Positions 13,991 through 20,411 of a stretch of 44,321 nt of DNA are shown in pieces (position 1 is the first letter of the stretch; every line of letters begins with the position of its first letter). The notes beneath the pieces are model-generated. The model worked only from the letters and a program-made list of their open reading frames with translations. It made no database searches and was not told the DNA's origin. Source of the DNA: Leptolyngbya sp. (GTDB lineage: Bacteria; Cyanobacteriota; Cyanobacteriia; Phormidesmidales; Phormidesmidaceae). The stretch is from positions 1-44,321 of the forward strand of contig QBLT01000011.1 in the NCBI GenBank assembly GCA_003249105.1. The letters are read 5' to 3'. Position numbers and translations under genes: made by a program.

Positions 13991-16900
13991 TTAACCAAAA
14001 ATTTTCTGTAAAATTCCCTTTTTTTGACGCTGGCCCAGCACTAAATGTTGCAGCATTTGCCCTTGCCACAGGGGCAGAGGGTGGCTAGCACGCTGTAGCT
14101 GCGCCACCTGAGCCAGATCGGAGGCGGCTTCGGCCCCGCCCCCGGTCAGCCAGCGAGCAATCGGGTGATCCCAACCCTGAAGAAATTCATCGAGCATCAC
14201 CCGGTGGCTGTCGTCGATGGGGAAGGGGGGGGCGCTGGTGTCGGCGTGGGTAGTTTCGTGCAGCGCTTTGCGGGGTTTGTTGGTAGCGGCCAGGGCCTTG
14301 GCGGTCAGCGCTCGCCAGGTTTCGCTCAGCAGCGGCGGCAGTGCCGCCAGACTGGCGGCCTGGGCCAGATCGCTAGCGAGGGCGGTCAGGTCGCGATCGC
14401 CGGTCTGCTCGCCATAGCTGGCAAAGTCGTCGAGCAGGGGCTGCAACAGTTCGCGCTCCAGCACGGTGGCCAGCCCGGCGACGGCGCTGGCGTCGGCCAT
14501 GGGGCCGCTGGCGGCAGACAGGTGGGCCACCGCGATGGCCAAATCTCTCTGGCTGTCGGGGCTGAGGCAAAACCAGACGCGATCGCTCAACCCCTGGCGC
14601 ACCTGCTGCTTGGCGTCGTCGAGCTTCAGCGGTGGGGAGGAAGCTGGGGCGGCAACGGGCGATTCTGCTATAGGCGATGGGGACGGCTGAACGGGTGATG
14701 CGGACTGAACCTTCGCTGACTGAGGCGGCGCGTCTGTCGGAACTGAGGCCTTGGCGACCCGAGTAGGCTGAACTGCCATAGATTGGGTCTGGGCTGCCGC
14801 AAAATCTGCCTTTTCTGCCTGAGCAGGATTGTCCTGTCGTGGAGCAGTCTGGGACTGACTGACCTGCATTTGAGCCTTTAATAGAGCCGCATTCTCAGCT
14901 TTTAATGTGCTCAGTTGAGACTCTTTTTGAACCATCAAGACGTTCTGTTCGGCTATTAAAGCATCCCGTTCTGCCAGTAATACGTCCTTCTCGCTGAGCT
15001 GAGCCTCTGCCACCGCCAGCCGTTGGGCCAGCTGCTGAAGCTCTACCGCTGTCGCCCCTGCCCGCACCAGGTTGCCGTAGTGGGGTTCGCTCAGATCAAC
15101 CGGCTTGGCCGACTCGCCCGGCAGGTAGAGCCAGCCCTGCTGATCGCCCCGGTTGACCACTAACCGCTGACCCTCAGGGTTGCTGATGGTGAGGGTGGTG
15201 ATGTCTGAGGCCGTTTTGGTCGTAGCGGAGTAACGGCGGTTGCTGTAGCTGAACTCGGCGGCATCTAAGGCCGCTGGTGGTTGGAGGGATGGCGCTGGAG
15301 TGGGAGCAGGGAGCGGGGAAGGAGCCGGTGGAAGGGGTTGGGAGGCGATCGTATCTAACGCCTTCTCCATTAGAGGTTCCGCAGCATCGAGGGGCATCTC
15401 AGCATCCCGTAGGATCAGGCGTTCCCCGGCTTTAGTCGCCAGGGGGACACTGACGTTGGGCAGCGATGGCCCAACCAGGCGGGTCGGCAGAGGCCCTTCG
15501 CCTCGACCGATGGACTGGCCCTTTTGCTGGGTGCTTGGTGTGGCCCCTGCCGCTAGCCGCACGCCAACCAGTTCTAGCTCCACGCTGGTGTTGCCCTGCC
15601 ACTCGTTCTGCTTGAGCTTATAGGCCACATCGAGGTGGCTGGGCAGGGGGTAATATTCGCCCCAGCGCCAGGCGATCGCCTTAATCGTCTCGCCCCCAGC
15701 TTCGGTGAGCACCAGCTTGAGGTGGTCGCGGTTGCGGCCCACCGTCTGCTGCTCTAGCACCTGCACATTCGGCGTCCAAAACACCGGGTCGGGGTTTTCA
15801 ATGCCGCAGGGGTGCAGGTGGTCGATCTGATCAAACAGGCCCTGGTGAATGTCGCTTAACCTCGCCTGGCTGTCGATTTTCACCAGCGGCTTGAGCAGAT
15901 CGACCGAGAGGGTTTGGCAGGCGTAGTGCGATAGCCGCGTGGTCACCTGGCGCAGGCGATTGGCCAAAAACGAGAAGCCCCCCGCCGCCCGGTGGCCGCC
16001 AAATTTTTCCATCAGGTCGTGGCAGGTTTGCAGGGCGGCAAACACGTCAAACTCGGGAATGCCCCGCGCCGAGCCGCGAATTACTTTGTGGTCGTCATCC
16101 TCGTAGGTGCCAATGAAGACGGGCACCCCGTAGCGCTCCACCAGCCGCGAGGCCACAATGCCGATGACGCCGTGGTGCCAGCCAGGCTGCACCACAACCA
16201 GGACGCGATCGCGCTCAATATCCACCGTGTCCAGGGCCCGCTGCTGCTCACACCAGGCGATCGCCTCCTGCTCAATGCTCTGGCAGAGATCCTGGCGGGT
16301 GCCGTTGATCTGCTCGCACTGCATAGCCCGCTCCAGCGCCACCCCCACGTCGTCGGTGGTGAGTAGGTCAATCACAATCTGCGGGTCGCTGATCCGGCCC
16401 ACGGCGTTGATGCGCGGCCCCAGGCGAAAGCCAATGTGCTCGGGCTTCAGCGGTTTGCTCTGGTCGGCCAGCCCCGCCACCTGAATGAGCGCCTGAATGC
16501 CAAATAGGCGCGATCGGGGTAACAGCCCCAGCCCCCGTCGCACCCAGCGGCGGTTCACCCCCGTCAGCGGGGCCAAGTCGGCGATGGTGCCCAGGGTAAA
16601 TAGTTCCAGCAGTGGCCCCGTCAAGTCTTGGGTACGCCCCAGCGCCTGGGCCAGACACACCGCCAAAATGTAGGCCACCCCCACCCCCGCCACCCCTCGG
16701 CCGGGCGAAGCCTCCGGCAGCACCTAGGGGTTCAAAATTGCGTTCGCGGGCGGAATCTCGGGGGGAATGTCGTGGTGGTCGGTGACGATCACCGCCAGGC
16801 CCAGTTCGCGGGCGCGGGCGATCGGCGCTACCGCCGCAATGCCGTTATCCACCGTGAGAATGATGCTCACCCCCTCGGCGTAGCAGTCTTCGACAATGCG

Positions 16901-17329
16901 GGTGTTGATGCCGTAGCCCTCGGCCATGCGGCTGGGGATGGTGTAGCTCACCTGCGCCCCCAGCGCCCGCAAGGCCCGCAGCAGCAGGGCAGTGCTGGTC
17001 ATGCCGTCGGCGTCGTAGTCGCCGCAGATGGCGATCGCCTGCTGAGTGGCGACCGCTGTGGCCAGCAACTCTAAACTCGCCGCCAGGTCAGGAAACTCCG
17101 CCAGAGGCGAGGGCAACTGCTGCCGCTCGGGGTCAAGAAAATCTGTTGACTGCGCTGGGGTCACAATACCCCGGTTAATCAACACCTGCGTGAGCAGCGG
17201 CGACAGCCCCGTCACCTGCGCTAGGGATGTCGCCAGGGGCGTGTTTGCTGGTGCCACCTGCCACCGCTGGCGCGGTAGGCCCGTAGCGGTTGTAGAGGAG
17301 GTGGAGGGGGCTATAGCAGACTCAGTCAC
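13991..17329 (-). pseudogene. recJ: RecJ single-strand DNA exonuclease with in-frame TAG and long C-terminal extension
   Basis: Codons 1-201 give the N-terminal RecJ half with GDYDADGMTS (103-112), VDNG (160-163) and the TDHHD box (183-187), ending ANAILNP. A TAG at 16724-16726 follows, and the same frame continues with GTG and RGVAGVGVAYILAV, the normal RecJ continuation, then the GGHRAAGGFS motif and an OB-like segment. RecJ degrades 5' single-stranded ends in recombination and mismatch repair. Ignoring the stop, the product is 1112 residues. The last ~530 are not core RecJ: a Pro-rich linker, a coiled-coil near residues 770-830 (LAERDALIAEQNVLM type) and a helical C-terminal domain. The stop may be a true nonsense mutation, a sequencing error or a split gene restarting at the adjacent GTG. 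Two pieces: 16724-17329 and 13991-16723. Confidence 0.8.
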
Positions 17330-17557: not shown

Positions 17558-17833
17558 TTATGGAAATTTACGATAGATATCTTGCCGATGGCGCACTCGG
17601 CGAAACTCGATGACCTGATTTTCTTGATCAATCCGTCAACCTAGACGGTATGACCCGAAACGAACCTTGTAGAAGTCATCGTATCCCTTTAGCTTTTCAA
17701 CTTTACCAGCAGCGAAAGGATTATCCTTGGTCGCATCACTAAAGGCAAACTCTTCGATTTGCTGCCTAACTTTCTCAGGAATTTTTGCTAACTCTTTGTA
17801 AAAAGTTTTTGTGTACCTAGCCTGCCAATTCAT
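17558..17833 (-). pseudogene. RelE/YoeB-like toxin, interrupted by TGA
   Basis: The reading frame begins MNWQARYTKTFYKELAKIP, a RelE/ParE-fold opening, and continues to VRFGSYRLG, where TGA (17636-17638) stops it at 65 residues. Reading through, the same frame gives RIDQENQVIEFRRVRHRQD and IYRKFP before TAA at 17558-17560. This is the exact C-terminal part expected of RelE mRNA interferases, including the catalytic arginine-rich strands. The TGA probably replaces a Trp, Arg or Tyr codon after a point change. The truncated product would lack the catalytic strand, so the toxin should be inactive. It overlaps the antitoxin stop (TAATG). Confidence 0.8.
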
Positions 17834-18132
17834 TAGCCATCTCCGGCTAGAGTTGCCTGGTAGAAGGCCTGACCTGCTTCTCCCTCAAGCCAATCATCAT
17901 TGTCAACCTCTTCTATAAGCTGACCTAGCGCTTCATCCTCTAGCCAGTCCATTAAAATCTCAGGCTGAGTATTTAATAGTTGAGCTAGTGTGAAAATTGA
18001 TATTTGAGGCTCATCAACAAAGAATAAGACACCGGGAATATTCTTGGTTTTTAAGAACCTTAAGAATAAGTCAGGTTGAGTGCCTAATATCGAAGCTGAC
18101 GTAGACAGATCAAGCGTTAGTGATGTGGTCAT
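17833..18132 (-). CDS. antitoxin of the RelE-like pair
   Basis: 99 residues from ATG 18132 (MTTSLTLDLSTSASILG); a longer frame to 18192 is possible but has an unlikely start. The protein has two weakly repeated segments, LGTQPDLFLRFLKTKNIPG and LLNTQPEILMDWLEDEALG, and an acidic C-terminus (EEVDNDDWLEGEAGQAF), typical of antitoxins that wrap the toxin. Its stop overlaps the toxin's start, the usual toxin-antitoxin arrangement, so it was once translationally coupled. I do not recognise a standard DNA-binding fold by eye. With the toxin broken, this gene may be drifting. Confidence 0.68.
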   Translation of the reverse strand: MTTSLTLDLSTSASILGTQPDLFLRFLKTKNIPGVLFFVDEPQISIFTLAQLLNTQPEILMDWLEDEALGQLIEEVDNDDWLEGEAGQAFYQATLAGDG

Positions 18133-18204
18133 TACATCTAAGCCCGATGAACACAAAAGAGCTATCCGCCAGAAAGGAAGATTGCTCAACATTTAAACTA
18201 ACAA

Positions 18205-18286
18205 TGGGCGGAGCGAGACTCGAACTCGCACAACCGAAGTCGCCACATTTTGAGTGTGGTGCGTCTACCAATTCCGCCATCCGCCC
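18205..18286 (-). tRNA. tRNA-Leu (anticodon CAA)
   Basis: On the minus strand the 82 nt fold as a class II tRNA. The acceptor GGGCGGA pairs with TCCGCCC. The anticodon stem is CCACA/TGTGG with loop CTCAAAA, so the anticodon is CAA (reads UUG). A long variable arm around CGACTTCGGTTGT follows. The T arm is GCGAG-TTCGAGT-CTCGC and the discriminator is A. CCA is not encoded. Its first 22 nt coincide with the end of the M48 peptidase reading frame. Confidence 0.95.
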
Positions 18287-19149
18287 TTGGATGCGTCCTC
18301 ATTATACTCAACTGTCGGGCGTTTAACCAGCTGGTAATAATCATTGGTGCTGGCCCAGCGATCAATTTCTCGGGCGCGCAGCACGGGCACCGGGTGGGTC
18401 AGCCCCTGGGTGCGCACCTGCTTGAGGGCTTCACCGATCGCGTCGTCGCTGAGGCTGTCGTAGGCACGGGCCTGGTCGATAAAGGCATCGACGTTGAGTT
18501 GGTCAACCAGCGAAGGCGAGCCGCCGCAGAGCTTCATCAGCAGGGAGGCGACGACGCGGGGGTCTTGGACGACGAGCAGAGCGGCGCGATCGCAGGTAAA
18601 CTCCGCACAGCGCACCCACTCCATCAGCTGATTTTGAAGGCTCTGGGCTAGCACTTCGCCCAGGGGTAGCTGGCTGGCGGCCATCGTAATCAGGTTGGCC
18701 AGGGTGAGGTAAACACTGTGCTCACACTTCAGGTGGCCCAGCTCGTGGGCGATCACCGCCTGGGTTTCTGCGGGGGTCAGCAGTTCGATCAGTGCCGTGT
18801 GGATGACGATAAAGGGCTGCTCGCCGCGCATGGCAAAGGTGTAGGCGTTGGGCACCGGGTTTTGGCGTACGTAGAGCTGGGGCACCTCCAGGTCGAGAAT
18901 GCGGCAGGCTTCGACCAGCGACTGGTGCAGGTCGGGCAGCTGGCGATCGCTCACCTGCAAACTCGACGCCAAATGGTCGAGGTGAAAGAACCGCTCCGCC
19001 AGGGGAGCCAGGGCCATGCGCACCATCACATCGAGCCCCGGCAGCTGCTTCAGAGCGCGGGTAGCTTCGAGATCGAGGGGGTGACGAAACTGGTCGGCGC
19101 GCAGCCCTACCAGCAGGGTTTTACCAGTCATAATTTGGGGACTATTCAA
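18265..19149 (-). CDS. M48 family metallopeptidase
   Basis: 294 residues. The zinc site is HELGH at 135-139, with the third ligand in CAEFTCDRAA (E183). Two moderately hydrophobic stretches flank the site but there is no clear multi-spanning core, so it is the soluble or peripheral cyanobacterial type, related to HtpX/Ste24 in fold. Such enzymes are thought to process or quality-control membrane proteins; the substrate is unknown. The last codons (GGWRNW and TAG) lie inside the 5' half of the tRNA-Leu gene on the same strand: the stop is tRNA nucleotides 20-22. RNase P processing of the tRNA would therefore remove the end of this reading frame from any co-transcript. Confidence 0.88.
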   Translation of the reverse strand: MNSPQIMTGKTLLVGLRADQFRHPLDLEATRALKQLPGLDVMVRMALAPLAERFFHLDHLASSLQVSDRQLPDLHQSLVEACRILDLEVPQLYVRQNPVPNAYTFAMRGEQPFIVIHTALIELLTPAETQAVIAHELGHLKCEHSVYLTLANLITMAASQLPLGEVLAQSLQNQLMEWVRCAEFTCDRAALLVVQDPRVVASLLMKLCGGSPSLVDQLNVDAFIDQARAYDSLSDDAIGEALKQVRTQGLTHPVPVLRAREIDRWASTNDYYQLVKRPTVEYNEDASKGGWRNW

Positions 19150-19790: not shown

Positions 19791-20411
19791 ATGATTGTGA
19801 CTGTAGCCAGCTTTAAAGGAGGCGTGGGCAAGACGACCACTGCCATTCATTTGGCGGCCTTTTTGCAGGGCTATGCCGAGACGCTGCTGATCGACGCCGA
19901 CCCCAACCAGTCGGCCCTAGCCTGGGCCAGCCGAGGCGAACTGCCCTTTTTAGTGGTTGACCAGTGGCAGGCGAGGGACCTGCCCACGCCCCACGGCCAT
20001 GTGGTGATCGATACTCAGGCCCGCCCTATTGCCGACGACCTGGCTCTGCTGGCAGCCTCCTGCGATCTGCTGGTGCTGCCCAGCACCCCCGATATTTTGG
20101 CCCTCGACGCCCTGGTTCTCATGGTGGAACATCTGGCAGGGCTACCAGTGGCCCCCTATCGCATTTTGCTGACCATGATTCCCCCTTACCCCAGCCGGGC
20201 CGGGGCCGAGGTGAGAGCTATGTTGATGACCACGGGTCTGCCGCTGTTTGCGGGGGGCATTCGTCGCTACAGCGCCTTTCAAAAAGCGGCCCTGGCCGGT
20301 ACGGCGGTCTACGACGTGAAAGACCCGAAGGCTGAGGTGGGGTGGCAGGACTATGTGGCTGTGGGTAAAGAGGTTTTGACCTATGGGCTGGTGACCGAGA
20401 GTAGGGAGTGA
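19791..20411 (+). CDS. orphan ParA family ATPase
   Basis: 206 residues with the deviant Walker A KGGVGKTTTA (9-18), the LLIDADPNQSALAWA aspartate box and VVIDTQARP as Walker B. The length is short for chromosomal ParA and matches the small ParA/MinD-type proteins used to position cargo or plasmids. No ParB-like gene is nearby; the neighbours are a transporter and a protease. A purine-rich inverted repeat begins inside the last codons. What it positions is unknown. Confidence 0.85.
   Translation: MIVTVASFKGGVGKTTTAIHLAAFLQGYAETLLIDADPNQSALAWASRGELPFLVVDQWQARDLPTPHGHVVIDTQARPIADDLALLAASCDLLVLPSTPDILALDALVLMVEHLAGLPVAPYRILLTMIPPYPSRAGAEVRAMLMTTGLPLFAGGIRRYSAFQKAALAGTAVYDVKDPKAEVGWQDYVAVGKEVLTYGLVTESRE

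Follow-up and report, generated by a model that had tools for sequence, protein, structure and literature searches.

The closest described precedent for a protein gene that runs into a tRNA gene is that of selB and selC, in which selC (tRNA-Sec) is nested in, or overlaps, selB in Alphaproteobacteria and other groups (Mukai 2021, PMC8124441). As in the case presented here, a tRNA on the same strand is translated into a C-terminal extension of the protein; the stop codon lies inside the tRNA in Dyella/Luteibacter, and remnant extensions are described in species where the two genes have separated (PMC8124441). A mechanism involving an RNase and nonstop mRNA has been proposed for selB, and it is a hypothesis there too. 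The same text mentions animal mitochondrial protein genes that overlap tRNAs, in which a protein gene and a tRNA again share bases (PMC8124441).

The cyanobacterial locus differs from selB/selC in that the protein, an M48 peptidase, is functionally unlinked to the tRNA, the overlap is just 22 nt long and a promoter-like box is situated inside the coding region. Nesting of the whole tRNA, given as the main alphaproteobacterial form, is absent, and codon-level selection on the ending after many separations, as argued below for the M48 protein, is not reported for SelB in the accessible part of that paper (PMC8124441). A literature search, covering titles and the beginnings of abstracts with most subscription journals outside its coverage, did not find the cyanobacterial overlap; an earlier description elsewhere is possible. 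The animal mitochondrial overlaps occur in compact organelle genomes, whereas the M48 overlap sits in a bacterial genome of 5 Mb. New protein ends usually derive from non-coding DNA or from frameshifts; the source of the tail in this instance appears to be a tRNA gene, the sequence of which is fixed by translation itself.

The window, i.e. the whole stretch of DNA that was analysed, is 44,321 nucleotides long. The relevant features are as follows.

18265..19131, minus strand: M48 family metallopeptidase gene, 288 aa, with HELGH at residues 129-133 (Pfam, invariant HExxH)
18205..18286, minus strand: tRNA-Leu, anticodon CAA (ARAGORN, Rfam)
18265..18286, minus strand: overlap, in which tRNA nucleotides 1-22 are the third base of AAG, the GGWRNW codons and TAG (sequence; 140 of 210 loci)
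18268..18309, minus strand: codons of a low-confidence C-terminal tail, residues 275-288, probably disordered and ending in WRNW (AlphaFold2, conservation)
18301..18306, minus strand: TATAAT (Tyr-Asn codons), probable -10 element of a tRNA promoter (sequence, conservation)
18286..18287, minus strand: site at which RNase P would be expected to cut a read-through transcript, as placed by the tRNA 5' end

The original prediction, that the final seven codons of the peptidase gene are also nucleotides 2-22 of tRNA-Leu on the same strand, was confirmed in its coordinates, strand and frame. The reading frame extends from an ATG at 19131 to a TAG at 18267..18265, and the protein ends in SKGGWRNW. The codons GGC GGA TGG CGG AAT TGG TAG (GGWRNW and stop) make up tRNA nucleotides 2-22, and nucleotide 1 is the last base of the AAG before them. 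The stop thus falls at nucleotides 20-22, and the tRNA is not wholly nested in the frame. ARAGORN and Rfam agree on the tRNA (18286..18205), which is the only one in the window; the RF00005 score was 59.3 bits, against a cut-off of 29, and ARAGORN assigned the anticodon as Leu(caa).

The tRNA-Leu(CAA) gene is present as a single copy in the genome from which the window was obtained (93% complete). A scan of that genome yielded 36 ARAGORN tRNA entries, some of them scanned twice from neighbouring loci, and in 2 of the 36 the tRNA is entered from upstream by a frame with over 110 open codons: the M48 frame (290 codons) and a frame of 373 codons that runs into tRNA-Ala(ggc) at L260. The latter, with its stop at tRNA nucleotides 8-10, was judged by eye to be spurious.

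When 57 relatives were searched with the peptidase, 52 gave a match, and most of the best alignments reach the last residue. In a sample of 386 genomes from the phylum, an orthologue (E values up to 1e-60) was found in 124, all of which were read (30 + 94 loci). Overlap with tRNA-Leu(CAA) was seen in 71 of them; 42 carry the same ending but do not overlap, and 11 are without it. Another set of 80 named loci, the best 80 of 551 relatives and including some genomes already present in the other samples, comprised 61 overlaps, 18 with the ending only, none without the tail and one at a contig end. The named records include Nodosilinea, Leptolyngbya, Phormidium, Planktothrix, Crocosphaera, Richelia and Dolichospermum.

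Removal of repeats reduced 238 loci to 210 non-redundant ones, of which 140 are overlapping, 56 separated but tailed, 13 tail-less and one truncated; L175, whose contig ends 33 nt past the stop, was left out of the class counts. The overlap, as measured from the ARAGORN 5' end, is 22 nt long in 132 loci and 23 nt in eight. Conservation in 140 of 210 orthologous loci excludes a chance overlap, and the phylum sample rules out a coincidence confined to one assembly. Relatives in which the peptidase ends before the tRNA, which according to the original prediction would have spoken against it, were limited to 13 of the 210 loci, and these either lie outside one large clade or, as in L158, have lost the tail.

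The peptidase assignment is based on a Pfam Peptidase_M48 match (E value 1.1e-18; 68.1 bits, cut-off 20.3). Residues H129, E130 and H133 are invariant in 100 aligned orthologues, and HExxH was likewise invariant in a set of 17. The protein resembles HtpX and Ste24 in its HExxH metallopeptidase domain, and the best solved structures matched by Foldseek were ZMPSTE24, Ste24p, BlaR1 and HtpX, all of them weakly (all E values above 0.001). The best score to the NCBIfam HtpX models was 70.5 bits, against a cut-off of 341, which does not place the protein among the HtpX equivalogs; no solved relative was found by sequence search. The protein might also have a link with PGM48, an M48 peptidase of chloroplasts.

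The AlphaFold2 model, made from 100 aligned sequences, has a mean pLDDT of 82, with values below 50 for residues 275-288. The tail therefore lies outside the modelled fold and is probably disordered. Matches to paralogues (30-43% identical) mostly end near residue 268-271, and at residue 283 at most, without a tail. Since 11 of the 124 orthologues are without the tail and L158 has lost it, the core enzyme can do without it. An invariant WRNW was found at the end of a variable tail with pLDDT below 50, and a flexible, variable segment with an invariant end looks like a short linear motif. At a guess, its two Trp residues and the Arg might dock a partner or a membrane surface.

The reading favoured here, to which we assign a probability of roughly 0.8, is that the peptidase acquired a C-terminal linear motif from a tRNA that has its own internal promoter, and that the motif has outlasted some eleven separations of the two genes. 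In ancestral cyanobacteria, the peptidase gene and tRNA-Leu(CAA) would already have lain side by side. The reading frame of the peptidase would then, in a single ancestor, have been extended through the tRNA promoter region and the first 22 nt of the tRNA; the tRNA-Leu bases there are strongly conserved and in this frame spell (GG)WRNW and a stop. Transcription of the tRNA would start from its own TATAAT promoter, within the peptidase codons. The new motif, on its flexible tail, would then have become useful, most likely by docking a partner, membrane or substrate, and selection on the amino acids would have held it after the genes separated, in some cases by way of partial duplication of the gene end and tRNA.

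A promoter inside the coding region had been suggested as a point to check: a conserved box is present, but a scan for consensus sigma-70 promoters reported none at that position. In the window, the TATAAT at 18306..18301 (minus strand) is 20 nt upstream of the tRNA and encodes Tyr-Asn. A TATAAT-like hexamer is found 23 nt before the tRNA in 96 of the 140 overlapping loci and 20 nt before it in 34; the spacings differ by steps of three, which preserves the frame. The hexamer is exactly TATAAT in 103 of the 140, and another 34 match at five of six bases. Among separated loci it has been lost from the coding region (four or fewer of six bases in 53 of 56), and the separated tRNAs mostly have a box of their own at a similar distance, as seen in the 27 of 56 loci where the tRNA was in the fetched DNA; in the remaining 29 it lies outside that DNA. 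The -35 region is inseparable from coding constraint. In view of the conserved box, a promoter of the tRNA's own within the coding region is very probable, and with it the tRNA could be made without loss of the peptidase mRNA.

This bears on the main alternative, in which a single transcript would give either the peptidase or the tRNA. A cut by RNase P would produce a nonstop mRNA, followed by tmRNA rescue and degradation of the product, so that WRNW would mark uncut mRNA and the level of the peptidase would follow tRNA processing. The geometry is as originally predicted, in that a cut at the tRNA 5' end would strip the stop and the six sense codons before it; the overlap is conserved in 71 of the 124 orthologues, and a similar model has been proposed for selB/tRNA-Sec (PMC8124441). 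Such coupling is nevertheless dispensable, as about eleven lineages are separated yet tailed, and the conserved internal TATAAT would allow the tRNA to be made without the peptidase transcript. We consider this alternative unlikely. In a mixed version, the motif was born once from the tRNA in early cyanobacteria, was important enough to persist in almost all their descendants, and the overlap also reports tRNA processing, by means of tailed peptidase made before the RNase P cut. This is quite unlikely; if it were true, peptidase activity in overlapping strains would reflect tRNA processing.

The proposal that the tRNA-derived motif is kept for its own sake is best examined in the loci where the tRNA no longer overlaps. 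In overlapping loci the ending is WRNW in 140 of 140, its Arg codon is always CGA or CGG, and TAG is the stop throughout (140 of 140). Among the 56 separated loci, WRNW is found in 55 and WSNW in the other (L122), with Arg encoded by six codons (CGC, CGT, CGA, CGG, AGA and AGG), Asn by AAC in 17, and the stops distributed as 29 TAG, 24 TAA and three TGA. The two residues preceding WRNW are GG in 48 of the 56 and variable in the others. Identity of the six sense codons to the overlap consensus is 0.89 to 1.0 at positions 1 and 2, and at third positions is 0.54 and 0.41 for the two Gly codons, 0.27 for Arg and 0.70 for Asn. Past the stop, identity to the tRNA is 0.12-0.45, except at the first base (0.68), and seven of the next nine tRNA bases were matched in none of the 56.

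When changes were counted on the tree over separated tips, the Arg codon showed 25 codon-state changes and one amino-acid change, the Asn codon nine and none, and the two Gly codons 19 and four and 24 and two, respectively. Differences in the eight linker codons before GGWRNW are mostly amino-acid-changing. A binomial test on the parsimony counts for the WRNW codons gave 1.5e-27, a rough value to be read as an order of magnitude only, as the test ignores mutation bias and takes the separated tips as one connected set. Synonymous codons and stops have been free to vary while WRNW was kept in all but one locus, and the tail is therefore under selection at the protein level. As judged from its codons, the ending is retained for its amino acids, and the many separations in which it has been kept argue against the overlap itself as the selected feature.

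It might be supposed that the tail is only a by-product of a frame that runs into a tRNA, kept in the separated lineages by recent ancestry and not by selection; the tRNA bases do, after all, dictate every overlapping tail. The separated tails, however, have changed at third positions and stops with first and second positions fixed, the linker and the post-stop DNA have turned over, and the binomial value, rough as it is, points the same way. These patterns rule out recent decay without selection and make the by-product explanation very improbable.

The history of the locus was reconstructed on a quick, single-gene tree, with the tail left out and no mixture model, rooted on L157. L157 is probably from Gloeobacter violaceus, and the root rests on that identity. 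The minimum number of changes on this tree comprises one gain of the ending (branch support 83), 11 separations, three apparent re-couplings and one loss (L158); with re-coupling disallowed, the count is 16 clades made up wholly of separated loci. L232, L206 and L227 are overlapping loci nested among separated tips, by several separations or by re-coupling through recombination.

Under this root, the orthologues without the tail are basal. In L157, the outgroup, 37 nt separate the stop of the tail-less peptidase from the tRNA; in L135, L144 and L146 the peptidase stop is the TAA within TATAAT, and a non-overlapping tRNA begins 14-70 nt further on. The D-loop of the tRNA in L135 and L144 appears by eye to be one base shorter than in overlapping loci. 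The arrangement in these four loci implies that adjacency probably preceded overlap, an order that depends on this rooting. The original suggestion, of a tRNA that arrived and brought a new stop with it, is thus probably to be reversed, since in L157 a tRNA is already next to the tail-less gene, and it is more likely that the frame grew into a tRNA already present next door. The converse, that the protein already ended in GGWRNW and the tRNA came to overlap it later, is highly improbable: the tail is indeed common to most orthologues, but it is a literal reading of generic tRNA-Leu bases (two other tRNA-Leu genes of the same genome share 15 bases with it), tail-less orthologues are basal, and L135, L144, L146 and L157 have a downstream tRNA without overlap.

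Traces of the separations were observed. At L044, an overlapping pair is followed, 269 nt on, by a second tRNA situated after a fossil peptidase end (IDRWASSKDYESLL...KKGGWRNW and stop), and at L226 a free tRNA is preceded by a fossil gene end (ESLLEGLLMHYNSEAASKGGWRNW and stop). Tandem duplication of the gene end together with the tRNA, followed by loss of one tRNA copy, is therefore one route of separation. The stretch L044:2337-2710, a tandem duplication of the peptidase 3' end and tRNA-Leu(CAA), has the form of a living intermediate. No clear fossil was found at L220, L191 or L236, and duplication may not be the only route.

If the favoured reading is correct, the approximately eleven natural separations, in which the peptide has been kept for its amino acids, would make this a clean case of the conversion of functional RNA into protein sequence. 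A caution also follows, as annotation that trims coding sequences at tRNAs could delete real, selected protein ends.

Several neighbouring genes were observed in the window. Just downstream of the tRNA, in the region 17636-18192 (minus strand), is a RelB-like antitoxin gene with a Pfam score slightly below the cut-off; a 65-aa frame after it looks by eye like a shortened RelE/ParE-type partner, for which a family search found none. A DHH-family (RecJ-like) gene on the minus strand is present as two abutting frames, 17329..16724 and 16723..13991, split by an in-frame TAG (16724-16726), which could mean that the gene is broken, that the assembly is wrong at this point or that there are two proteins. 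A ParA-like partition ATPase gene occupies 19791-20411 (plus strand); its match to NCBIfam ParA_partition is below the cut-off, and Pfam assigns it to CbiA.
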